A stretch of DNA of 29,373 bases from contig JAJZKX010000001.1 in the NCBI GenBank assembly GCA_021850745.1, positions 1 to 29,373 of the forward strand. Direction: 5' to 3'. A model generated the notes under the pieces. The model saw only the letters and a list, made by a program, of their open reading frames with translations, was not told the origin of the DNA and did not search any database. Shown in pieces: positions 5,845 to 18,363 of this stretch. The position numbers and the translations under genes were made by a program. Position 1 is the first letter of the stretch; each line of letters starts with the position of its first letter. This DNA is from Thermoplasmata archaeon (lineage in GTDB: Archaea; Thermoplasmatota; Thermoplasmata; Thermoplasmatales; Thermoplasmataceae).

Positions 5845-8304
5845 ATGGGGGTACATAAATTGCAATTAGAGCAGGAGCCACTCCATAAGACGAAGACCGG
5901 TTCCAGAAATGTTGGAAAACCTGTCAAGAGAGTTGAAGATATCAGAATTGTTAGGGGCAAAGGAGGTTATGCCGACGATATAGAGCTTGCGGACCAACAT
6001 TATGCAGCTATTCTTTCCAGTCCGTATGCCCATGCTCTCATCCGTAAAATTGATGTTTCCAAGGCTCTGGAACTACCCGGGGTTGTTTACGTTTTGACCG
6101 GTGCTGATGCTGCCAGAATAACGAAACCTATGACTTCAAGGGCAGCCACCAAATCGCCCATGTCACACTATATAATGGCGAATGAGAAAGTCAGGTATAT
6201 GGGGGAACCTGTCGCTGCCGTCGTGGCAAAGACCAAGTACATCGCACAGGACGCCGTGGAACTCATAGAAGTCGAATACGAACCATTGCCCGTGGTTGCA
6301 TCAATTGAAGAGGCACTGAAAAAAGATGCTCAGTTAATATATCCTGAACTAAAGTCCAATGAAATCGTTACCGACCATTTTGATTTTGGAAATGTGAACA
6401 AAGCCTTCAAAGAAGCGGATGTTGTTGTTAAAGAGAGAATGAAGATTCACCGGTATGCCTCCACTCCTCTCGAAACGTTTGTTGTCAATGCTTTCTATGA
6501 TCAGACCAGAGATGAACTGCTTGTCTATGCCAGCGATCAGCAACCGGGAAGAACCGTTACGTCCGTTGAGAGAACCACTGGAATACCTGCTTCAAGAATT
6601 AGGCTGATAGTACCCCCTGTTGGCGGAGGATTCGGTTATAAACTTGCGGTGTGGCAATATGTTGCCATAATGGCGGTGTTGAGCAAGGGATGTGGAAAAC
6701 CTGTTAAATGGGTACAGACTAGAATGGAAAGTCTTTACGCGTTTCACAGACCGAGGGGCTACATGGATACAGAGCTTGCACTCAGAAAGGATGGAAAGAT
6801 CCTTGGAATGAAACTGACCGACTGGGAAGCTGACGGGAACTGGCCGTACGTGGCGGCCCTTTATTCACTGATTAAATTCGCAAACATGAGCGGTGTTTAT
6901 GAGATAAGGAATCTTTCCTTCGAATACCACAGCATTGCGACGAATGATCCTCCAATAGTCCAGGATCGTGGGGTTGGAAAACCATTCATGGCGTTTTCCC
7001 TTGAGAGAATTATTGACATTGCAGCAAAGAAACTTAACATTGATCGCCTCAAAATCCGGGAAATTAACTTCATTCCTGCGGAAAAAATGCCATATACAAC
7101 TGCATCCGGAGAAGTTTACGAAAGTGGAAACTACCCTGCCACATTCAAGAAGGCAATTGAATTTTCAAAATTCTATGAAAGACTGAAAGAGAAGGAACAT
7201 CAAGTTGAGAAAGGAAAATTCCGCGGCATAGGCATAGCCTGCGGAATTGAGCCGGGAACTTCAAATCTTGGATATTATTTCCTTTCAAAAGCTTCAGAAC
7301 CTGATTATAACGGTTCTGGGCAGATGTCAACTGTCGAAATCTCCCAGGATGGAAAGATAAAGGTCAACATGAACGGCCCTGAGATAGGCACGGGCCACGT
7401 TACAACTATATCACAGGTAGTCGGTGACGTTTTTGATATTGATTCCAGTGAGGTGTCGGTGGATTCCTGGTTTGATAGCACACAGGGTCACCTGACCTAT
7501 GCAGGAACATACTCGAATGCCTTCAATGACGTGTATCTTGGTGCTGTCCTGACTGCTGCCAACCGCCTAAGGGAAAAAGTGATCAGGATATCTGCTTCAC
7601 TATTGCATGAAGATGTAAACACCCTCTCCCTGTCGAACGGTAATGTAATAAAAATAGGACAGGAGGATAAGCCGGTTCTTTCATTGCAGGAAGTTGCAAA
7701 GATAGCGTACGGCAGGTTACTGTCTTTTCCTGATGAAGAAGAACCCGGCCTGAAAGTAATTGCCTCATATGTGAACAAAACTGCCAAACCTTTTGTAAGA
7801 TCAGACTTCAACGTTCAGCTGACGCATTCCAATTCCGTTCATGTTGTTATGGTAGAGATTTCCTCAGAGAACTGGTCTCCGAAGATCATTGACTATGCCA
7901 TAGTACACGATGCAGGAAAAGTGATTAACCCGGGGATCGTGGAAGGTCTTGCGATAGGATCAACTGTAAGCGGAATTGGTGGTGCACTGCTGGAAGAGTT
8001 CAAATTTGATGAACAGGGAACAAACCTATCCATAACTTTTGGGGACTATCTCAAGCCAACAGCAATGGAAGCACCCGATATAAGACTCGATACCACGGAA
8101 TCACCTGCTCCGAATACCGTATTCGGAACCAAAGCTGTTGGAGAAGGCGGGGCTATAACCTCCCTTGCTGCAATAGCAAGTGCCGTTGAGAACGCTCTGG
8201 AACCCTTTAATGTAAAAATAACAGAACTGCCGATCACGCCTGAAAGAATTTGGAAGATGGTCAGGAAGAGCCCCCAATACAGGAATTCAGGAGGCGTGGC
8301 ATAG
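5845..8304 (+). CDS. xanthine dehydrogenase-family molybdenum hydroxylase, large (Mo) subunit
   Basis: 819 residues from ATG 5845; the in-frame TTG 5800 adds 15 residues but precedes the TATA box. The protein opens with V-G-K-P-V-K-R-V-E-D, as is usual for CoxL/XdhA subunits. Cofactor motifs include P-P-V-G-G-G-F-G-Y-K in the first half and G-T-K-A-V-G-E-G-G-A near the end, whose Glu is the family's catalytic base. The segment Q-D-R-G-V-G-K-P-F-M occupies the place of the usual aYRGaGrPE; the Cys-containing loop of CO dehydrogenase is absent, so it is a hydroxylase of a carbon substrate rather than CoxL. The subunit binds molybdopterin cytosine dinucleotide and hydroxylates an aromatic or heteroaromatic ring with water as the oxygen source. 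The FAD-subunit ATG follows its stop directly, with GGAGGCG upstream. Substrate unknown; nicotinate, picolinate or similar is a candidate. Confidence 0.93.
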   Translation: MGVHKLQLEQEPLHKTKTGSRNVGKPVKRVEDIRIVRGKGGYADDIELADQHYAAILSSPYAHALIRKIDVSKALELPGVVYVLTGADAARITKPMTSRAATKSPMSHYIMANEKVRYMGEPVAAVVAKTKYIAQDAVELIEVEYEPLPVVASIEEALKKDAQLIYPELKSNEIVTDHFDFGNVNKAFKEADVVVKERMKIHRYASTPLETFVVNAFYDQTRDELLVYASDQQPGRTVTSVERTTGIPASRIRLIVPPVGGGFGYKLAVWQYVAIMAVLSKGCGKPVKWVQTRMESLYAFHRPRGYMDTELALRKDGKILGMKLTDWEADGNWPYVAALYSLIKFANMSGVYEIRNLSFEYHSIATNDPPIVQDRGVGKPFMAFSLERIIDIAAKKLNIDRLKIREINFIPAEKMPYTTASGEVYESGNYPATFKKAIEFSKFYERLKEKEHQVEKGKFRGIGIACGIEPGTSNLGYYFLSKASEPDYNGSGQMSTVEISQDGKIKVNMNGPEIGTGHVTTISQVVGDVFDIDSSEVSVDSWFDSTQGHLTYAGTYSNAFNDVYLGAVLTAANRLREKVIRISASLLHEDVNTLSLSNGNVIKIGQEDKPVLSLQEVAKIAYGRLLSFPDEEEPGLKVIASYVNKTAKPFVRSDFNVQLTHSNSVHVVMVEISSENWSPKIIDYAIVHDAGKVINPGIVEGLAIGSTVSGIGGALLEEFKFDEQGTNLSITFGDYLKPTAMEAPDIRLDTTESPAPNTVFGTKAVGEGGAITSLAAIASAVENALEPFNVKITELPITPERIWKMVRKSPQYRNSGGVA

Positions 8305-9165
8305 ATGTACCCAAGAAATTTCGAATACTACAGAGCAAAATCGGTCCAGGACGCAATAGATTATATGGATCGTTTTAGTGAAGCCCGAATAATTGCTGGC
8401 GGTCAGAGTCTCATGCCCATGCTCAAGTTAAGAATAGCCTCTCCGGAAATACTTGTGGATATCGGGAGAATACCTGAGCTTACGAAGATTTCAGTTGAGG
8501 GCGATAGCGTGCGAATCGGTGCAATGGTAAGACACAAAGAAATTGTGGAAAACAAGATCATCATGGAAAAAATACCGATTCTTTCTGCAACCGCTGAACA
8601 CATAGCAGATATCCAGATCCGGAATAGAGGAACCATAGGCGGAAGCATCTGTGAAGCTGACCCTTCGGCAGATTATCTTCCCACCCTTTTCATTCTGAAT
8701 GCTGAATTGAGACTGCAGTCCAAGAGTGGAGAAAGAAAATTGAAGATTGAGGACTTCATCCTCGGTGCTTTCGAAACATCGATAGAGCCCGGAGAAATTC
8801 TTACTGAGATCATAATAACCTCAAACAGAAGCAACTACCGGGTTGAGAAATATGCCAGGAGAAGTGCTGATTTCGCTGTTGCCTCCATAGCTGCACTGTG
8901 CAAACTGGCCAAGGATGGATCCGTCGACGAACTGAGAGTTGCGGTGGGAGCGCAGGACGGGATACCCCTCAGATTCAGGCAGATTGAAAAAGACCTCAAG
9001 GGAGTGAAACCAGATCGTGAGGTCATAATGGAATCAGTGTCAAAGGCTGGAGAATTGCTGTCTCCCATTGATGATACCCATGGAAGCAGTGAATACAGGG
9101 CATACGTAACACTTAGAATGATGGAGAAAAAGCTTTCGGAGCTTTTGTTGACTGGAGGTGAATGA
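8305..9165 (+). CDS. molybdenum hydroxylase FAD-binding (medium) subunit
   Basis: 286 residues of the CoxM/XdhB family, which carries electrons from the 2Fe-2S clusters to the final acceptor through FAD. Family motifs are clear: F-E-Y-Y-R-A at the N-terminus, A-G-G-Q-S-L-M-P-M-L-K (31-41), where AGGQSL contacts the FAD diphosphate, I-R-N-R-G-T-I-G-G-S (107-116), D-P-S-A-D-Y near residue 121, and a C-terminal half typical of the CO dehydrogenase flavoprotein C domain. The ATG follows the large-subunit TAG without a gap, and the stop overlaps the next gene, so the three subunits are translated from one message in the order large-medium-small. Length is normal and nothing is missing. Confidence 0.94.
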   Translation: MYPRNFEYYRAKSVQDAIDYMDRFSEARIIAGGQSLMPMLKLRIASPEILVDIGRIPELTKISVEGDSVRIGAMVRHKEIVENKIIMEKIPILSATAEHIADIQIRNRGTIGGSICEADPSADYLPTLFILNAELRLQSKSGERKLKIEDFILGAFETSIEPGEILTEIIITSNRSNYRVEKYARRSADFAVASIAALCKLAKDGSVDELRVAVGAQDGIPLRFRQIEKDLKGVKPDREVIMESVSKAGELLSPIDDTHGSSEYRAYVTLRMMEKKLSELLLTGGE

Positions 9166-9644
9166 GATTGGTGAATGTAACATTGACTATTAACGGAACG
9201 AAATACATGGATGATATTGAGCCAAGAACACTGCTGGTTCATTTTATCAGGGATAATCTTAAGCTAAAAGGAACTCACATCGGGTGTGATACTGGTCATT
9301 GCGGAGCTTGTACTGTTCTGCTTGACGGAGAACCTGTGAAATCATGCCAGATCCTTGCTATTCAGGTGGACGGGCAGTCGGTTAAGACTGTTGAAGGACT
9401 GGAAGAAGGTGAAAAACCCAGCATAGAACAGGAAGCTTTCAGAAATAATTTCGCCATGCAGTGCGGATACTGTACCTCAGGATTCCTGATGATGACACAT
9501 TACATAATTCGGAACAATGCCGAACTCTCAAGAGATGAGATCAGGGAAAAGCTGCACGGAAACTACTGTATGTGCACAGGGTATCAGCAGATTGTTGATG
9601 CAGTGCAGGAAGCGCAAAAGAAATATCTTGGCGGCCATAAATAG
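9162..9644 (+). CDS. molybdenum hydroxylase 2Fe-2S (small) subunit
   Basis: 160 residues. The N-terminal plant-ferredoxin-like cluster is bound by C-D-T-G-H-C-G-A-C-T-V-L-L-D-G and a later Cys in V-K-S-C-Q. The C-terminal cluster is bound by C-G-Y-C-T-S-G-F and N-Y-C-M-C-T-G-Y. Together these are the two [2Fe-2S] centres of CoxS/XdhC-type subunits. ATG 9162 overlaps the previous stop, but the strong site GGAGGTG (9154-9160) is only one base away from it. TTG 9168 (seven-base spacing) or GTG 9171 (ten bases) fit the ribosome better and give the family-like beginning VNVTLTINGT. The true start is therefore probably one of these. A hairpin with a T-rich tail follows the gene. Confidence 0.94.
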   Translation: MRLVNVTLTINGTKYMDDIEPRTLLVHFIRDNLKLKGTHIGCDTGHCGACTVLLDGEPVKSCQILAIQVDGQSVKTVEGLEEGEKPSIEQEAFRNNFAMQCGYCTSGFLMMTHYIIRNNAELSRDEIREKLHGNYCMCTGYQQIVDAVQEAQKKYLGGHK

Positions 9645-9646
9645 AC

Positions 9647-9680
9647 AGGACTTTTGCAGTCCTATATTTTATAAAGTTTT
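9647..9680 (+). terminator. hairpin terminator after the Mo-hydroxylase operon
   Basis: AGGACT and AGTCCT form a perfect six-base stem with a five-base loop (9647-9663), followed on the plus strand by ATATTTTATAAAGTTTTTT. It overlaps the stop of the convergent amidohydrolase gene. Confidence 0.7.
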
Positions 9681-10633
9681 TTAGCGTTCCCCTTCAATAT
9701 CATTTCCTTTGTTTTCTGACTTAGGTCGTCCAGCATTTCCACATCCCTGTGAGATGTCCAGTTGCCCATGTTAAACGGATAATCTGTTCCGAGAACCACG
9801 TTGGATTCACCCCACTGCTTGATCATGAATTCCATGGAGTTTCCGTCGAAAAGAACAGTGTCGAAGAATATCTGCTTCAGGTTTTCATCATTGAACGGTT
9901 CCCGGCCCCTGACTTCCTCCCGAACCTCCGTAGCATGTTTTATCCTTCCGATTTGAAATGGCATCGCGCCTCCGCCGTGGCAGAATATAAATTTCAGTCT
10001 TGGAAATTTCTTCAATACCCCTCCAAGAAGGAGACTGGTAATAGCAACCGTTGTCTCTGCTACTGTTCCTACAACAATTCCCATGTAGAATTTACTTAGC
10101 CTTTCTCCACCCAGGAAATCGTTTGGATGTACAAAGATCGGCATTTCCAGTTCCTGCGCCTTTTCGTAGACTGGATGCAGACTGTCATCGTCAAGATTTT
10201 TTCCGGCTATGTTGGTTCCAATCTCTATGCCGTTCATTTCCATCTTGGAATGTATTCTTTCAAGTTCACTCAGCGCCATTTTGCGATCCTGAAGAGGAAG
10301 GGTACCGTTGCCCAGAAATGAAGAGCCAGCTTTCTTGCAAGCCTCTGCTATGCCATTGTTCTGGATCGATGCGGAACGCGAAGCTGTTTCTGCTTTTTCA
10401 TCATAGAGGAACAGGTGGTGAGTCGGTGAGATTACCTGAGAATCTATCCCAATGGCACCCATCTCCCTGAGTCTTGCTTCCACGTCAAAGAACCCTAGCG
10501 GCATTGGCATGATCTTTTTTCCATACGCCTCTATGCTGAAAAGTTTGGAACCAGGTATTTCTTTAATGGTCCCATTCATTTCGGATACCGAATCCCTTGA
10601 AAGAAAATGGGAATGTACATCTAGATAATTCAT
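9662..10633 (-). CDS. amidohydrolase_2 family metal-dependent decarboxylase/hydrolase, ACMSD-like
   Basis: 323 residues from ATG 10633. The frame is open to 10714, but the TATA-like AGTTATACATTTTC (10651-10664) is centred 25 bases before 10633 and the protein then begins MNYLDVHSHF, as in family members. H7 and H9 form the HxH metal motif; later come I-F-V-H-P-N-D-F, F-I-F-C-H-G-G-G and L-G-T-D-Y-P-F, giving the other two His ligands and the Asp. The family includes 2-amino-3-carboxymuconate-6-semialdehyde decarboxylase, gamma-resorcylate and 2,3-dihydroxybenzoate decarboxylases, and, as I recall, 3,6-dihydroxypicolinate decarboxylase (PicC). It is divergent from a cupin with extradiol-type ligands, a pairing that recalls the 3-hydroxyanthranilate dioxygenase/ACMSD step. 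Decarboxylation of a hydroxylated ring acid or ring-cleavage product is the best guess. Confidence 0.88.
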   Translation of the reverse strand: MNYLDVHSHFLSRDSVSEMNGTIKEIPGSKLFSIEAYGKKIMPMPLGFFDVEARLREMGAIGIDSQVISPTHHLFLYDEKAETASRSASIQNNGIAEACKKAGSSFLGNGTLPLQDRKMALSELERIHSKMEMNGIEIGTNIAGKNLDDDSLHPVYEKAQELEMPIFVHPNDFLGGERLSKFYMGIVVGTVAETTVAITSLLLGGVLKKFPRLKFIFCHGGGAMPFQIGRIKHATEVREEVRGREPFNDENLKQIFFDTVLFDGNSMEFMIKQWGESNVVLGTDYPFNMGNWTSHRDVEMLDDLSQKTKEMILKGNAKKLYKI

Positions 10634-12169: not shown

Positions 12170-12748
12170 ATGAAGAGAAGAATCGTTGTTTGCATAACTG
12201 GATCAACCGGTGCAATATATGGCGCAAGACTGCTCCAGGCGTGTTCAAAAATCGAGAACATTGAAACACACGCAGTGATAAGTGGTGCTGCCGAGGCAAC
12301 ACTCAGGCTCGAGATGCGTAAGGAACGCGGAGAAATTGAGAAACTGGCAACTTACGCATATAGCGAATATGATTTTGAGGCACCGATAGCAAGCGGATCC
12401 TTCATTACAGATGGCATGATAGTTGCACCCTGCTCCATGAAAACGCTCTCAAGTATTGCCACAGGTTTTGAGCAAAACCTTGTGACCAGGGCAGCAATGG
12501 TGGCGCTGAAAGAGAGAAGACCACTCATCCTCCTCACGCGGGAGACTCCCCTAAACCTCATCCACCTCAGGAACATGGTACAGGTGACTGAAGCTGGGGG
12601 AATAATAATGCCCCCCCTTCCTCCGCTGTATTTTGAGTCAAAGGACATGGTTGAATTGGCGGACCTTACCGTAGGCAGGGTTCTGAACATGGTCGGCGTG
12701 AAAACTGATCTGCTGAGAGAGTGGGGAAAAGAGAAACTGACTGATTAG
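12170..12748 (+). CDS. ubiX: UbiX-like flavin prenyltransferase
   Basis: 192 residues, full length. It makes prenylated FMN (prFMN), the cofactor of UbiD decarboxylases, from reduced FMN and dimethylallyl phosphate. Motifs in order: I-T-G-S-T-G-A-I-Y-G near the N-terminus, I-A-S-G-S-F-I-T-D-G-M with A-P-C-S-M-K-T-L-S-S-I-A (about 83-104), L-K-E-R-R-P-L-I-L-L-T-R-E-T-P-L (about 122-137) and N-M-V-Q-V-T-E-A-G-G. The family's catalytic Ser, Arg and Tyr surroundings look intact. It is a single-gene unit convergent with the FMN split-barrel gene, only four bases between stops. As the only UbiX in the window it presumably serves all UbiD proteins here that use prFMN. Start ATG 12170 is supported by the immediate KRRIVVCITG beginning. 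Confidence 0.95.
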   Translation: MKRRIVVCITGSTGAIYGARLLQACSKIENIETHAVISGAAEATLRLEMRKERGEIEKLATYAYSEYDFEAPIASGSFITDGMIVAPCSMKTLSSIATGFEQNLVTRAAMVALKERRPLILLTRETPLNLIHLRNMVQVTEAGGIIMPPLPPLYFESKDMVELADLTVGRVLNMVGVKTDLLREWGKEKLTD

Positions 12749-12752
12749 AATC

Positions 12753-13241
12753 CTAAAATAATTTTTCTTCTCTGGCAAACCTCAGCATTCTTAAAAAATT
12801 TCCAGAATACTTTTCTTCGACGCTTTCTGCTTTGAAGAGTAACTCCGATATGAGGGGAGCCTTCTCGGAAAAATCCTCCAGGACAGATACTGTCTCTGCC
12901 AGGAAAAGTGTTTCTGATTCTATTTCTATGTGTGAGTTAACTGCAACGTATCTTTCAAACCTGCATTTGACATATTCAACGCCGGGTAGACTCTGGATAA
13001 TTAGCGTACCTTTTCCATTCATGCTAATGTTCTGGTTGGTTCCGGAAAATGAATTGATCATCACAAGGAGGCGAGTTTGATCCAGGCAAAGAACCTGAAA
13101 GGGAGATAGAAGCGCTACATGCGGATAGCCGGAATCATTCTGACTGAGAAGAAAAATAACCGAGTTCTTCCGGTCAGAATTTTTTTCTCCCAGAACCTTC
13201 AGGATTTTCCTAGGTATTTTCGTTCCGAGATCATGTGACAT
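12753..13241 (-). CDS. FMN-binding split-barrel protein (pyridoxamine 5'-phosphate oxidase-like)
   Basis: 162 residues. The sequence has the split-barrel pattern of the PNPOx/flavin-reductase superfamily: a strand with N-S-V-I-F-L-L-S, then S-G-Y-P-H-V-A-L-L-S-P-F, then a strand-turn R-L-L-V-M-I-N-S-F-S-G-T-N-Q-N-I, and a helical C-terminus ending F-A-R-E-E-K-L-F. It is not a close match to any family with a known substrate that I recognise. The start follows the stop of the 533-residue UbiD-like gene by 32 bases, and AGGTGA stands immediately before ATG 13241, so the two are probably co-transcribed. Pairing of a flavin-fold protein with a UbiD relative lacking two catalytic residues suggests a reductase, flavin-delivery or structural partner. 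This is inference from position. Confidence 0.7.
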   Translation of the reverse strand: MSHDLGTKIPRKILKVLGEKNSDRKNSVIFLLSQNDSGYPHVALLSPFQVLCLDQTRLLVMINSFSGTNQNISMNGKGTLIIQSLPGVEYVKCRFERYVAVNSHIEIESETLFLAETVSVLEDFSEKAPLISELLFKAESVEEKYSGNFLRMLRFAREEKLF

Positions 13242-13273: not shown

Positions 13274-14875
13274 TTATACCTTCTCCCTCAGTTTAGAAAG
13301 TCTCTCACCAACATCGTAATGATTTCCATTAACAATTTCCATTGCGTCTTTTGCAAATTCTTCCGGCCAGTATCCCAGTTCGTATCCATACCATGGTTCA
13401 ACAAGGCTGAGTTGCGGTAAATTGAGTTCTTTCCATTTATTCAAAGCTGCTTCCATGTATTCCTTCTTTGGAAGCGATGTTGGTGGATACGGATATTTTA
13501 TAGTGGCGTCAATAAGCATTCCCGAACTTCCTACACCGCCGGGGAATTCCTTTTCCTCGTGTGAGGCACCTGGACTGTATGCGGAAGGATCAAGTCCGGG
13601 GCTCTTGCCAGTCACGATCTTTACATCTCTTGCCGGCTGAACTCTCCAGCTCATGGCCCATATCACGGAATCGAGTGATCTTATGTCTATATCGTCATCG
13701 ACGACGATAAAGAATTTTCCCCATCTGGAATCGTAGGCCGAAGCAAGATTGAGCACCTGCCAAGGATGCGCTTTGTTCATCTTCTTTATCTTGATAACGC
13801 ACCACTGAGCCTGGCTCATTTCATGCCAGGCAATATCTATTATTCCAGGCACCTTTGCATCAAATTTTAAGAATTTATAATATACATTCTCTGAGGATAC
13901 CTGTCTCACTTTGCTGCTCTCACTGGGAGGAAACTGGCTCATTATATGTATAAATACGGGGTTCTTTCTCATTGTCACCGCTGTGACGTCGAATACCGGC
14001 CTCAACCATACATCAGTTGCCATGTATCCCGTATATTCCCCGAATGCGTTTCCCGGCTCCATGTATTCGGTTGAGATCAGTCCCTCGATAACTATGTCGG
14101 CATTGGCAGGGACTTCCATGTCAATGGTCTTGCATTTAACCATCTGTACAGGATCACCTGAAAAACCTCCAGCTATCGTGAATTCGTCCACCCCGTAAGG
14201 TATCTTTGCGGCAGCAACAAAAAAATATGAAGGTGGACCGCCCACGATGACTGCTGCTGGCATGGGTTTTCCAAGTTTTTTCCACTTGTTCCAGTGAATT
14301 ATCCCTTGATTCCCCCTGTTTATTTCCCAAAGAAGTTTAGTTTTTCCAAACACATGCGCGGAGTAATTACCCAGATTTCTAATCCCTGTTTCGGGATCCC
14401 TGGTTACAATCTGGGTTGTGGTTCTTATCTGCCCACTGAAGCCCGGAAGTTCTACAGGTATGGGAAGTGATTCTATGCCATTTCCATCCTTCAGAAGGTC
14501 TCCTCCGGTAACTACAATCTGCTGAACTGCACCGGAATTCACTTCCTCGGTTTCAACAGGGTGAAGCTGTGCGTTTTCCCATTTCTTTGCTATTGCCTGT
14601 CGTGTTGGATCACACTGCAGACCGAGAGCGTAAAGTTCAGTCGATGAAGCGTAAATTCCGGTCGCAACATCGATATTGAATTTTCTGGATTTTGCGTCAT
14701 GCACATTCGTAAAAAGAAATCCCCTGCGTTGATTTTCAGGTAACCCCCTGTATTGGAGCCTAGCCAGAGTAGTGATATCTGTTTCCTTTTTTACCGGAGA
14801 ATCTATCGTAAAAAGTTTACCATGGTCATCAAGCGTCTTCAGGTAGTCCTGCAAGTCTCGGTAGTACGAACCCAT
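13274..14875 (-). CDS. UbiD-family protein, divergent 533-residue type (copy 1)
   Basis: 533 residues, longer than typical UbiD (about 490), and similar along its whole length to the protein at 16762-18363. The UbiD fold is evident from T-R-D-P-E-T-G-I-R-N-L-G-N-Y (158-171), V-I-E-G (262-265) and F-G-E-Y-T-G-Y (278-284). In working UbiD enzymes the motif continues Y-R, giving the Arg that holds prFMN; here it is Tyr171-Ser172. The first Glu of the E-x4-E/D pair is Gly275, while Glu280 remains. Two of three catalytic residues are therefore replaced. UbiD enzymes decarboxylate or carboxylate aromatic and alpha,beta-unsaturated acids; this one may need a partner subunit or use other chemistry. 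It heads an operon with the FMN split-barrel gene. A TATA-like CTAAATAG is centred 25 bases before ATG. It is divergent from the canonical UbiD copy 2. Confidence 0.9.
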   Translation of the reverse strand: MGSYYRDLQDYLKTLDDHGKLFTIDSPVKKETDITTLARLQYRGLPENQRRGFLFTNVHDAKSRKFNIDVATGIYASSTELYALGLQCDPTRQAIAKKWENAQLHPVETEEVNSGAVQQIVVTGGDLLKDGNGIESLPIPVELPGFSGQIRTTTQIVTRDPETGIRNLGNYSAHVFGKTKLLWEINRGNQGIIHWNKWKKLGKPMPAAVIVGGPPSYFFVAAAKIPYGVDEFTIAGGFSGDPVQMVKCKTIDMEVPANADIVIEGLISTEYMEPGNAFGEYTGYMATDVWLRPVFDVTAVTMRKNPVFIHIMSQFPPSESSKVRQVSSENVYYKFLKFDAKVPGIIDIAWHEMSQAQWCVIKIKKMNKAHPWQVLNLASAYDSRWGKFFIVVDDDIDIRSLDSVIWAMSWRVQPARDVKIVTGKSPGLDPSAYSPGASHEEKEFPGGVGSSGMLIDATIKYPYPPTSLPKKEYMEAALNKWKELNLPQLSLVEPWYGYELGYWPEEFAKDAMEIVNGNHYDVGERLSKLREKV

Positions 14876-15064
14876 TATTAGAGAGAAACAACCTCCTATT
14901 TAGTCTTTCTCTTAACTGTACACTTTGGCATATTAACTGGAAAGTGGCTCCAGAATTGCCGGGAATTCAATTAACCAAAATTCAGAACTTTCTTATTGTG
15001 AAATGATGCTGTACGTGTTGGTTTTATCGCTTCTGAATGGATAAGTTTAAGAAGTGCTTTATTA

Positions 15065-15077
15065 GATGTATACAATT
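15065..15077. promoter_or_regulatory. palindrome TGTATACA upstream of UbiD copy 2
   Basis: GATGTATACAATT with the perfect core at 15067-15074 lies 33-40 bases before ATG 15107, at or just upstream of where a TATA box is expected (TATACAATTAAG). It may regulate copy 2 and possibly the divergent copy 1. Confidence 0.55.
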
Positions 15078-15106
15078 AAGTGCAAAAAACTTTATCCAGA
15101 TAAATT

Positions 15107-16585
15107 ATGCAACTTTCCGCAGGTGTAGAATTGCAAATAAATCAGAGCTTTAGACATTATATAGAAAAAGTAGCTTCAGACGGCCTCTTGAGAACTGTTG
15201 ACGGCTCCAGCTGGGACTTGGAAATAGGCGCCATTACTGATGCGAATTCCAAGGCCAATAAGTATACACTTCTCTTCGACAATGTGAAAGGTTACCCCAA
15301 GGGATTCAGGGTCCTGACCGGTTCCCTTCTTGATGCTACCCGTGTGGCACATGCACTTGGTCTTGAAGGGCGATTTGACAACATGAAACTCACCGCTTTC
15401 ATAAAAGACAGACTCAAAAATGCCGTTAGCAATCAGTTGAAATTCGAGCCGGTTTTTGTTTCATCTGCTGACTTCATGACCAATGTGCAGAAAGGAGATA
15501 ACGTGGACCTGACGAAGTTTCCTGTTCCGAAATGGTTCAAGGAAGATGGAGGCAGATATATCGGAACCATGGATGCTGTCATAACACGAGACCCTGACAC
15601 CGGATGGGTTAATGTTGGAACCTACAGAATAATGATGAAAGGAAAAGACAGGCTTGTGATTTTGATGGAAGCGTCCAGACATGGAAGAACGCACGTTCAA
15701 AAATATCTCAAACGCGGCCAGAAATGTCCCATAGCTATTTCAGTCGGCCACAACCCCGCATTGAATCTCTTTTCCGCGAATGAAGTCCCGGAGGGTGTCT
15801 CCGAATACAACTTCCTTGGAGCCGTCAGGGATGAACCAATGGAAGTCTACAAAGGGAATGTCACCGGGCTGCCCCTGCCTGCGGACAGTGAAATTGTCAT
15901 TGAGGGTTACATAGACGGGGAAATGGACGATGAGGGGCCTCTTGGAGAGTTCATGGGATACTATGCCGGTGGAAAAATGAGAAACCCAGTCATAAAGGTT
16001 GAGGCCGTTTATTACCGGAATGACCCAATTCTCTTGGGGACTTGTGCTGGTAAACCACCTTATGACTATTCCTACTTCAGGTGCCCGATCAGGGCGTCAC
16101 TTATCTGGAATGCGCTGGAAAGTTCAGGGATTTCCGGAATTAACGGGGTATGGTGCCATGAAGAGGGTTACTCTAGAGCGTTCACCACGGTCTCGGTCAA
16201 ACAGACTTTCGGCGGCCAGGCTGTCATGGCAGGGCATATAGCTTCTCAGTGCAGGCCGGGTGCTGTAGCCGGGAGGTATACTGTTGTTGTAGATGAGGAC
16301 ATAGATCCGTCTAATCTGAGCGAAGTGGTATGGGCAATGTGCAGCAGAAATGACCCGGCTACGGGAATTGACATCATACGGAACACCATGGGTACTCCAC
16401 TTGACCCAATTTCCAGACACGAGGATGACAAGGATCTGCTTGAATACACAAGCTCGAGGGCAGTTATCTATGCTGTAAAGCCGTTCGACAAAATATTGAA
16501 AAATACCTTCCCTGAAGTGGTGAAAGCTGATCCGGAAACAGATTCTTCTGTCAGGAAAAAGTACGAAGAAATATTCCGGAAATAA
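15107..16585 (+). CDS. UbiD-family decarboxylase, canonical catalytic residues (copy 2)
   Basis: 492 residues. The family pattern T-R-D-P-D-T-G-W-V-N-V-G-T-Y-R lies at 160-174 and E-G-P-L-G-E-F-M-G-Y at 276-285. R174, E276 and E281 align with Arg173, Glu277 and Glu282 of Aspergillus Fdc1, the residues that position prFMN and the substrate; Asn169 corresponds to the metal ligand Asn168. It should therefore be an active prFMN-dependent (de)carboxylase, with cofactor from the nearby UbiX. Closest in the window to copy 4. Substrate unknown; an aromatic or heteroaromatic carboxylate is likely from context. ATG 15107 is chosen; TTG 15131 is an alternative closer to the family's usual beginning. The palindrome TGTATACA lies just upstream, so control by the GntR-type regulator is plausible. 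Confidence 0.93.
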   Translation: MQLSAGVELQINQSFRHYIEKVASDGLLRTVDGSSWDLEIGAITDANSKANKYTLLFDNVKGYPKGFRVLTGSLLDATRVAHALGLEGRFDNMKLTAFIKDRLKNAVSNQLKFEPVFVSSADFMTNVQKGDNVDLTKFPVPKWFKEDGGRYIGTMDAVITRDPDTGWVNVGTYRIMMKGKDRLVILMEASRHGRTHVQKYLKRGQKCPIAISVGHNPALNLFSANEVPEGVSEYNFLGAVRDEPMEVYKGNVTGLPLPADSEIVIEGYIDGEMDDEGPLGEFMGYYAGGKMRNPVIKVEAVYYRNDPILLGTCAGKPPYDYSYFRCPIRASLIWNALESSGISGINGVWCHEEGYSRAFTTVSVKQTFGGQAVMAGHIASQCRPGAVAGRYTVVVDEDIDPSNLSEVVWAMCSRNDPATGIDIIRNTMGTPLDPISRHEDDKDLLEYTSSRAVIYAVKPFDKILKNTFPEVVKADPETDSSVRKKYEEIFRK

Positions 16586-16731
16586 TGAGTTTCGTATTTC
16601 TGGTATTGTATTTTTGCAAGATTCCTGATTTTGTCATTTTATCAATACCGTGAATTCTTCAAATAATTTGGATTGTCTGTTAAATCTTCATTTTAAAGCG
16701 TTTCACGATTTGTCTAAAAATTCTATCAAAT

Positions 16732-16742
16732 AAACTTTATCT
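16732..16742 (+). promoter_or_regulatory. TATA-like box of UbiD copy 3
   Basis: AAACTTTATCT is centred 25 bases before ATG 16762, consistent with a leaderless transcript. The same word AAACTTTATC occurs before copy 2 (15085-15094) but closer to its ATG. No TGTATACA is seen in the 176-base gap between copies 2 and 3. Confidence 0.5.
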
Positions 16743-16761
16743 AAGTTGGATATGTCGTATC

Positions 16762-18363
16762 ATGGTGTTCAATGATCTGCGGGAATATCTGGCAGAACTG
16801 GAGAACAGGAATCTTTTGACGACGGTGAATCGCGCAACGAAGCTTGAAACGGAGTTAATGCCCCTCGTAAGACTACAGTTCAGGGGAATTCCGGAAAATA
16901 AGAGAACCGGTTTTCTTTTCACTGATGTCTATGACTCTACTGGCAAAAAATATGATGCCAGGGTTTGCACGGGAGTATTATCAAGTTCCATGGAAATCTA
17001 TGCCACCGGAATGGGATGTAAACCTGAAGAGGTTCCGGATCGTTTCACATACGGAATAGAGCATCCTATTCCGCCAAGAATAGTTGAATCCGGGAAGTGT
17101 CAGGAAGTCGTCATAACTGGAAAAAGACTTGACCTGGGAGGATTGAGCGACATTCCACTCCCGGTTGAGATACCGGGATACAGCTGCCAGGTGAGGACGA
17201 CAACGGCTTTTGTTACCAGAGACCCGGAAACCGGAATACAGAATGCTGGTACATATTCCGGGCAAATATTCGGACCCAGAAAGATACTCTGGGAAATTCA
17301 CCGGGGAAGCCATGGATTCACCCATCTTAAGAAGACCGCAGAAAAGAGTAAAACCATGGATGCTGCAATAGTCATCGGTGGGCCGCCATATGTACAGTAC
17401 ACCGCGGCTGCCAAGGTCCCATACGGAATGGATGAGTTTGCTGTGGCCGGGGGAATAGCAGGAAAACCTATTGATGTGGTAAAATGCAAAACCGTGGATC
17501 TGTACGTTCCGGCCACGGCAGAGTACATAATAGAAGGAAAGGTCTCTGTCGAGAACTTCGAGCAGCAGACGCCATTCGGCGAGTATACCGGATATGTTGC
17601 CGCGGATGTGGAAAGTCAATGGTGCCCGGTTATGGAGGTTACTGCAGTCACGCATAGAAAAGACAAACCAATATTCCAGACGATCATAAGCCAGATGCCG
17701 CCAAGCGAGAGCAGCAAGCTGAGACAGGTTGCGTATGGCAGTGCCTTCGTGAAATTCCTTAAAAATGACTGCGGGATTCCGGGAATTAAGAAGGTAGCGT
17801 TTCATGAATCCAGCGGAAGCTGGCAGTACTGCGTAATCCAGCTAAAGAAACACAGTCCGACAGATTCCATGAGGGCACTTGTATGTGCATCTGGCTATGC
17901 TTCGGATATTGGGAAAATACTGATCGCAGTGGATGAGGACATAGATCCGTTTGATCCGGACTCGGTCAACTGGGCTATGAGTTTCAGGATGCAGCCTCAC
18001 AGAGACACACAGATCATAAGAGGAAAGGCTGCCCATCTTGACCCGTCAGCAGCTTCACCCGGAGAAGATGATGATCCCAAGGGGCACAGGGAGAGTTCTG
18101 CACTCCTCATTGACGCAACGAGAAAAACTGATTACCCGCCTACATCGCTTCCAAAGAAGGAATTCATGGAGAATGCCGTGAATATATGGAACGAGCTTGG
18201 TCTTCCACCGCTTTCGCTGAAACAGCCATGGCATGGGTACAACCTGGAGAAATGGACTCCGGAATTTCAGAGATACTCCGACATGATCCTGAGGAGAGAG
18301 CAGTTCAAGATCGGTGAGGAACTGGAAAAGAAGAGGCAGAAAGTGGACATTCTCTCCAAATAG
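16762..18363 (+). CDS. UbiD-family protein, divergent 533-residue type (copy 3)
   Basis: 533 residues, the same length as copy 1 and similar throughout, including the C-terminal block Y-P-P-T-S-L-P-K-K-E-F-M. As in copy 1, the UbiD Arg is replaced: T-R-D-P-E-T-G-I-Q-N-A-G-T-Y-S ends in Ser166. The first Glu of the pair is Gln269, with Glu274 kept; another acidic residue, Glu267, sits two places earlier (Glu273 in copy 1). The metal Asn161 is retained, and W-E-I-H-R-G (177-182) keeps the His that is Asn in copy 1. The shared substitutions in two proteins argue for a functional subclass rather than decay. It has its own TATA box and ends at a strong terminator shared with the convergent isochorismatase-family gene. 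Confidence 0.9.
   Translation: MVFNDLREYLAELENRNLLTTVNRATKLETELMPLVRLQFRGIPENKRTGFLFTDVYDSTGKKYDARVCTGVLSSSMEIYATGMGCKPEEVPDRFTYGIEHPIPPRIVESGKCQEVVITGKRLDLGGLSDIPLPVEIPGYSCQVRTTTAFVTRDPETGIQNAGTYSGQIFGPRKILWEIHRGSHGFTHLKKTAEKSKTMDAAIVIGGPPYVQYTAAAKVPYGMDEFAVAGGIAGKPIDVVKCKTVDLYVPATAEYIIEGKVSVENFEQQTPFGEYTGYVAADVESQWCPVMEVTAVTHRKDKPIFQTIISQMPPSESSKLRQVAYGSAFVKFLKNDCGIPGIKKVAFHESSGSWQYCVIQLKKHSPTDSMRALVCASGYASDIGKILIAVDEDIDPFDPDSVNWAMSFRMQPHRDTQIIRGKAAHLDPSAASPGEDDDPKGHRESSALLIDATRKTDYPPTSLPKKEFMENAVNIWNELGLPPLSLKQPWHGYNLEKWTPEFQRYSDMILRREQFKIGEELEKKRQKVDILSK

Follow-up and report, generated by a model that had tools for sequence, protein, structure and literature searches.

Candidate active-site variants of UbiD enzymes with a putatively relocated arginine in an archaeal gene island

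A Glu-Arg-Glu network is regarded as the catalytic hallmark of the (de)carboxylases that depend on prenylated flavin mononucleotide (prFMN). In Fdc1, the pair of Arg173 and Glu277 binds the carboxylate of the substrate and tunes Glu282; the variant E277Q has very low activity and R173A low activity, R173 variants mature prFMN poorly, and activity is kept only in Glu-to-Asp changes (PMC5818171). A protein that had merely lost both residues should decarboxylate poorly. The subject of this study is a stretch of 29,373 nucleotides from a Thermoplasmata archaeon (contig JAJZKX010000001.1; the whole stretch is called the window), which encodes four proteins of the UbiD family, two of which, P0001 and P0002, have neither this Arg nor this Glu in the usual place. 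We consider it fairly probable that P0001 and P0002 are UbiD enzymes that use prFMN but have an altered active site, in which the Arg has moved upstream, and that they act beside a canonical UbiD.

The four open reading frames (ORFs) have the strands, coordinates and lengths that an earlier, model-written note on this DNA gave them, and all four products match PF01977 (Table 1). P0001 and P0002 share 49% sequence identity, P0002 and P0003 28%. Both variants score above the cut-offs for PF01977 and PF20696 (P0001, 176.2 and 78.5 bits; P0002, 170.3 and 74.9 bits; cut-offs 23.3 and 24.2 bits). At 241 and 235 bits they lie just under the TIGR00148 cut-off of 244.85 bits, which P0003 (284.9) and P0004 (267.8) pass, and with TIGR02723 and TIGR02724 (phenylphosphate carboxylase alpha and beta) they reach 89-137 bits, below the cut-offs of 564.6 and 468.95. 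Positions 173, 277 and 282 of Fdc1 correspond to 166, 269 and 274 of P0001 and to 172, 275 and 280 of P0002, and P0001 145 corresponds to P0002 151. In P0003 and P0004, the checked residue numbers give the canonical set (R174/E276/E281 and R167/E270/E275). The two 533-residue proteins, as the same note had reported, have Ser for Arg173 and Gln or Gly for Glu277 and keep the Glu282 equivalent: P0001 has Glu136, Ser141, Arg145, Asn161, Ser166, His188, Glu225, Gln269 and Glu274, and P0002 has Glu142, Ser147, Arg151, Asn167, Ser172, His194, Glu231, Gly275 and Glu280. The Arg173 and Glu277 of the canonical motif RXnEX4[E/D] are thus lacking in P0001 and P0002, which, judged by sequence, are members of the UbiD superfamily outside the canonical Glu-Arg-Glu class.

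The remainder of the active site appears in place. The residues equivalent to the Fdc1 ligands of the cofactor metal and the prFMN phosphate are retained (Asn161, His188 and Glu225 in P0001; Asn167, His194 and Glu231 in P0002), and so is the acid-base Glu or Asp at 282 (Glu274 and Glu280, respectively). The UbiD fold was recovered in the predicted structure model of P0002 (predicted local distance difference test, pLDDT, 95.7), for which Foldseek ranks HmfF first, as it does for a first, weaker model of P0001 (pLDDT 80.7). HmfF, the 2,5-furandicarboxylate decarboxylase, keeps Arg, Glu and Glu in the alignment, unlike the variants of the window. Two features once thought to mark these proteins as a special pair belong to their wider family: the equal length of 533 residues is real and is a trait of a family of about 530 residues (P0001 and P0002 exceed P0003 by about 40 residues and have C-terminal columns that are missing from short members), and the extra Glu two residues before the last Glu is present in both proteins but also in 119 of 127 canonical relatives of at least 505 residues, so that a compensatory role for it was rejected.

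What the earlier note missed is an Arg 21-22 residues upstream of the 173 site (Arg145 in P0001, Arg151 in P0002), in a column that holds Tyr or Phe in most canonical relatives. When 135 variant sequences were compared column by column with 127 long (at least 505 residues) and 58 short canonical sequences, the largest difference was at position 145, not at 173: Arg in 135/135 variants versus Tyr or Phe in 185/185 canonical sequences. Arg145, Asn161, Tyr165 and Glu225 are invariant in the 135 variants; position 136 holds Glu in 101, Asp in 16 and Asn in 15, and the column of P0003 Asp147 (the DGG-type Asp) holds Ser in 115. Compared with Aspergillus niger Fdc1 and the superfamily of Escherichia coli UbiD, the variants carry not only Ser with Gln or Gly, but also a new, invariant upstream Arg.

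The sample was then wider: 450 sequences from all sources were aligned and three fragments dropped, leaving 447 full-length homologues; the protein searches supplied the best 120 of 4357 and of 3244 matches in the searches with P0001 and P0002, and 120 of 4784 matches to a different non-canonical protein, from locus L010. Arg is present at 145 and absent at 166 in 254 of the 447, and present at 166 and absent at 145 in the other 193; no protein among the 447 has both arginines or neither. The same holds for the motif as a whole, since the first 178 proteins comprise 55 with Arg, Glu and Glu and 123 with non-Arg, non-Glu and Glu or Asp, with no mixed case, which argues that the double change is not due to chance. 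The swap is absent from the printed alignments of UbiD, HmfF, HudA, VdcC, phenazine-1-carboxylate decarboxylase (7pda) and phthaloyl-CoA (coenzyme A) decarboxylase (Pcd), in which Fdc1 and AroY were not printed, and searches of the open-licence literature of PMC, in which most papers were seen as listings, turned up no description of it.

The proteins with the swapped Arg fall into two classes: the S-type, the Ser group that includes P0001 and P0002, and the N-type, which has Asn at Fdc1 position 173. The acid at 277 is present in 190/193 canonical and 116/117 N-type proteins and in none of the 137 S-type proteins, in which position 277 is free (14 different residues); conversely, 119/137 S-type proteins have an acid at 136 (P0001 numbering) and no canonical or N-type protein does. 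Acids at both 136 and 277 occur in none of the 447 proteins. This pattern fits an Arg-acid pair that may have been rebuilt.

In a FastTree phylogeny of 329 rows from which the motif columns were left out, 137 of 140 non-Arg rows fall in one clade (support 0.998), and the Arg label needs 3 changes, whereas 200 shuffles gave 105.6 on average. The members of this clade are UbiD-like, about 530 residues long, and come from archaea and Desulfobacterales, which supports the earlier suggestion of a selected subclass: among the matches listed, named S-type sources are Thermoplasmatales, Sulfodiicoccus, Aigarchaeota, Thaumarchaeota/Nitrososphaerota, Caldarchaeum and Desulfobacterales/Thermodesulfobacteriota, and the named Chloroflexi or Dehalococcoidia proteins from the P0001 and P0002 searches were canonical in 8/8 checked. 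The N-type forms an unnamed clade of proteins of about 540 residues with Arg145, no Arg173, Asn at 173 and usually Asp at 277 (e.g. L010:5879-7513, L059:6848-8653 and 115 of the 120 proteins P0179-P0298); residues E-R-N-D-E at 141/145/166/269/274 occur in 112 of the 120 best matches of the L010-protein search. The named N-type sources among the matches listed are all bacterial (Desulfobacterales, Chloroflexi/Dehalococcoidia, Acidobacteria, Deltaproteobacteria). The N-type therefore shares the Arg swap with the S-type of the window, but differs in Asn173, in having no acid at 136 and in its separate origin. An IQ-TREE phylogeny of 38 representative rows groups the N-type pair with a canonical protein as its sister (99/97) and unites 13 of 14 S-type rows in one clade (100/99). 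Holding all swapped rows as one clade was rejected by the approximately unbiased (AU) test (p-AU 0.000145; 0.000539 for S-type plus N-type alone), and thus the Arg swap did not have a single origin but arose at least twice. Monophyly of the S-type was not rejected on these representatives (p-AU 0.185; borderline, 0.0546, with P0160 added); a perfect S-type clade was discarded, as the S rows need 3 or 2 changes on the representative trees. Across 384 long rows, Arg166 and Arg145 need 4 changes each. With two clades carrying a swapped Arg, the motif seems open to rebuilding.

In the explanation that we prefer, the single active-site Arg would have moved from the place of Fdc1 173 to Arg145 or Arg151, probably on the antiparallel neighbouring segment of the same beta-hairpin, as the strand order suggests. 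The S-type partner acid of Fdc1 277 would usually be replaced by Glu or Asp at position 136 of P0001, and, with Arg145 invariant and Glu136 frequent, the Arg-acid pair may have been rebuilt from the neighbouring strand. The variants would bind prFMN, for which the presence of UbiX in the same island is circumstantial. The moved Arg would still clamp an anionic substrate group, probably a carboxylate, and tune the Glu282 equivalent, and the vacated 173 side may leave space for substrates whose shape or orientation would not fit canonical enzymes. The variants would then be (de)carboxylases of a putative archaeal aromatic-catabolism island and not dead copies of canonical UbiD, and they may be a source of untapped carboxylation chemistry. 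The earlier idea of a different cofactor geometry can be kept in altered form, given an invariant Arg nearby that the canonical column lacks, its placement being read from the sequence; another Arg at the catalytic place, which that note named as evidence against its view, may in part be what Arg145 and Arg151 represent.

Several observations weigh against this explanation. The predicted access of Arg145 to the active site is deduced from strand order, and the hairpin register given by DSSP is ambiguous. The spacing varies: Arg lies 21 residues before site 166 in 101/137 S-type proteins and 22 in 36, the long canonical residue in the Arg145 column sits 22 before in 122/133, and BLAST pairs P0002 Arg151 with P0003 Gly153. 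An Arg within -24..-20 is found in 44/60 short canonical proteins, often as GGRYIGT, and in 8/133 long canonical proteins, and the mere presence of an Arg in this loop is therefore unremarkable and not unique to the variants; what sets them apart, in this sample, is that an Arg at the Tyr column and Arg173 strictly alternate. The sample was drawn from the relatives and loci of three query proteins and does not span the whole superfamily. In 18/137 S-type proteins there is no acid at either 136 or 277, the exclusivity of the two acids goes back to few changes on the tree (6 and 5), and, for a few divergent proteins, different alignments give different letters at 277 (in L012, STE versus SHE/SAE). 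Independent co-changes of the two Arg positions amount to only 3 starred pairs; all of them agree, but their number is too small for the sign test (p 0.25). The covariation of 136 with 166, considered as a sign of contact, has only 3 independent pairs on starred branches (median p 1).

It is possible, though unlikely, that P0001 and P0002 serve a hetero-oligomeric (de)carboxylase as structural or regulatory subunits, together with P0003 or with each other, and have little catalysis of their own. Multi-UbiD complexes have been proposed, namely a naphthalene carboxylase of about 750 kDa (PMC12016498), and the gene arrangement is suggestive: the SGE-REE-SQE cassette of the window is found again in L006 and also in L003/L004, with the first gene truncated there by the end of the contig. 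P0002-like genes occur in 7/117 genomes of the order of G001, and P0003-like genes in the same 7 (in G008, as a contig-end partial); the P0001 type is in 6 of these, being missing from G008. A short canonical UbiD lies within 3 kb of 10/12 S-type genes, compared with 15/51 long canonical genes (Fisher p 0.0009), a count that covers S-type genes with enough flank, includes partial ORFs and draws on loci that are not independent. Such proximity would be expected of partners in a shared pathway and of subunits alike. However, transcription of the SGE gene and of the canonical P0003 gene diverges in the window, and in G790, which has both variant types, about 9 kb separate the P0003-like gene from the SGE gene (L109/L110); no P0003-like gene was seen in L009 and L116; a shared pathway is therefore favoured. 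Moreover, the acid-base Glu and the metal ligands are retained, which would be needless in a dead subunit. The earlier note had invoked phenylphosphate carboxylase as a heteromer that departs from the triad; this is contradicted, in the one genome concerned (G942), by its PpcA (1040 bits) and PpcB (1033.5 bits), which are above the curated cut-offs, are encoded side by side, and both read Asp/Tyr/Arg/Glu/Glu, i.e., the tested heteromer is fully canonical.

Improbable, to a greater degree, is that the substrate has no free carboxylate and that the variants carry out another prFMN cycloaddition (e.g. on a CoA ester, or an isomerisation or hydration), with Arg145 binding the substrate elsewhere. 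The low activity and poor cofactor maturation of Fdc1 R173A and the tolerance of Glu-to-Asp changes only (PMC5818171) would agree with this. So would Pcd (8oz5), a CoA-ester user which in the alignment is, like the window variants, without Glu at 277; unlike them, Pcd keeps Arg at 173 and has no Arg around the 145 place. Against such a reaction, Arg is never simply lost in the 447 proteins, alternating strictly with position 145, and the acid at 277 is retained in N-type proteins. Finally, that P0001 and P0002 are degenerate pseudoenzymes drifting after duplication is judged unlikely in the extreme, for the freedom of S-type position 277 has to be set against a large clade spanning archaea and bacteria, four invariant residues, intact ORFs in the window and a recurring island; a "missing Arg" is no evidence of a dead UbiD.

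Table 1. Coordinates of UbiD-related features in the window (aa, amino acids)
Feature	Position	Strand	Remark
UbiX flavin prenyltransferase (makes prFMN)	12170..12748	+	NF004685 and TIGR00421 above cut-off
Small protein, 162 aa, probably PNPOx-type split-barrel flavin protein	12753..13241	-	Neighbour of SGE gene
P0002, UbiD-like protein, Arg putatively relocated, "SGE" type, 533 aa	13274..14875	-	PF01977
Codon of Gly275 in P0002	14051..14053	-	Place of Fdc1 Glu277
Codon of Ser172 in P0002	14360..14362	-	Place of Fdc1 Arg173
Codon of Arg151 in P0002	14423..14425	-	
P0003, canonical UbiD-family decarboxylase, 492 aa	15107..16585	+	PF01977; between both variants
P0001, UbiD-like protein, Arg putatively relocated, "SQE" type, 533 aa	16762..18363	+	PF01977
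Codon of Arg145 in P0001	17194..17196	+	
Codon of Ser166 in P0001	17257..17259	+	Place of Fdc1 Arg173
Codon of Gln269 in P0001	17566..17568	+	Place of Fdc1 Glu277
P0004, second canonical UbiD-family decarboxylase, 487 aa	23869..25332	-	PF01977

The small protein next to the SGE gene has relatives that directly adjoin the SGE gene in six archaeal genomes (G001, G002, G003, G007, G008 and G004); in L110, a relative adjoins a canonical UbiD and UbiX. The relative in G004 (L113:12227-12682) matches PF01243 (PNPOx_N), while the protein itself has no Pfam match and only weak, PNPOx-type matches in the PDB (best E 0.14). A profile built from eight neighbour sequences and run on the fetched loci gave no other strong match there, and one weak match (22.4 bits) at L133:4719-5579, near PpcA/PpcB. 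Helpers such as LpdD can be required in UbiD maturation (PMC10865409). LpdD resembles a proteasome-assembly chaperone, unlike the probable PNPOx-type protein of the window, and for this reason a helper role of the latter is only a lead; an LpdD-like identity is unsupported, the sole PDB matches being weak and PNPOx-type. A bolder proposal, which we regard as doubtful, is that UbiD enzymes which repeatedly re-sited their single catalytic Arg would form a distinct prFMN class with a new substrate pocket, and that the S-type may need the PNPOx-type protein as a dedicated factor for prFMN delivery or maturation, an idea suggested by the support that Arg173 gives to oxidative prFMN maturation in Fdc1. 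If this were true, the PNPOx-type protein would be a new kind of UbiD helper.

The surrounding region is a putative aromatic-catabolism island, which also contains HpaB/HpaC-like monooxygenase parts, a xanthine-dehydrogenase-type molybdenum hydroxylase, a class II aldolase, an amidohydrolase, a cyclase, two isochorismatases and major facilitator superfamily (MFS) transporters. Much of it recurs around the same genes in G001, G002, G003, G007 and G008 (the order of G001); in the wider phylum of G001, 1/389 genomes was positive, the centre genome only, and in the phylum of G005, 3/398. The possible decarboxylases in window positions 1-29373 are the four UbiD proteins, the class II aldolase, which resembles 3,4-dihydroxyphthalate decarboxylase (a weak match, below the cut-off), and an amidohydrolase_2 protein. 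The multiple types of decarboxylase suggest a multiply carboxylated aromatic or heteroaromatic substrate.

Other members of the family were seen in passing. P0019, an S-type protein of the cultured Sulfodiicoccus acidiphilus, has a UniRef name beginning "Anhydromevalon...", presumably anhydromevalonate phosphate decarboxylase, which looks over-annotated because of its altered motif and catabolic neighbours. Two proteins of a Chloroflexi metagenome-assembled genome (MAG), L017:4269-6149 and 8156-9691, are phthaloyl-CoA-decarboxylase-like and, like Pcd, keep the Arg and lack the Glu277 equivalent. A UbiD-like protein at L055:11691-13148 has Arg173, Asn277 and Asp282 and lies beside a canonical member of 543 residues. 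In G006, a Desulfobacterales MAG (L012, L018), there are 90 matches to P0001 at E <=1e-20, an extreme expansion of the UbiD family.

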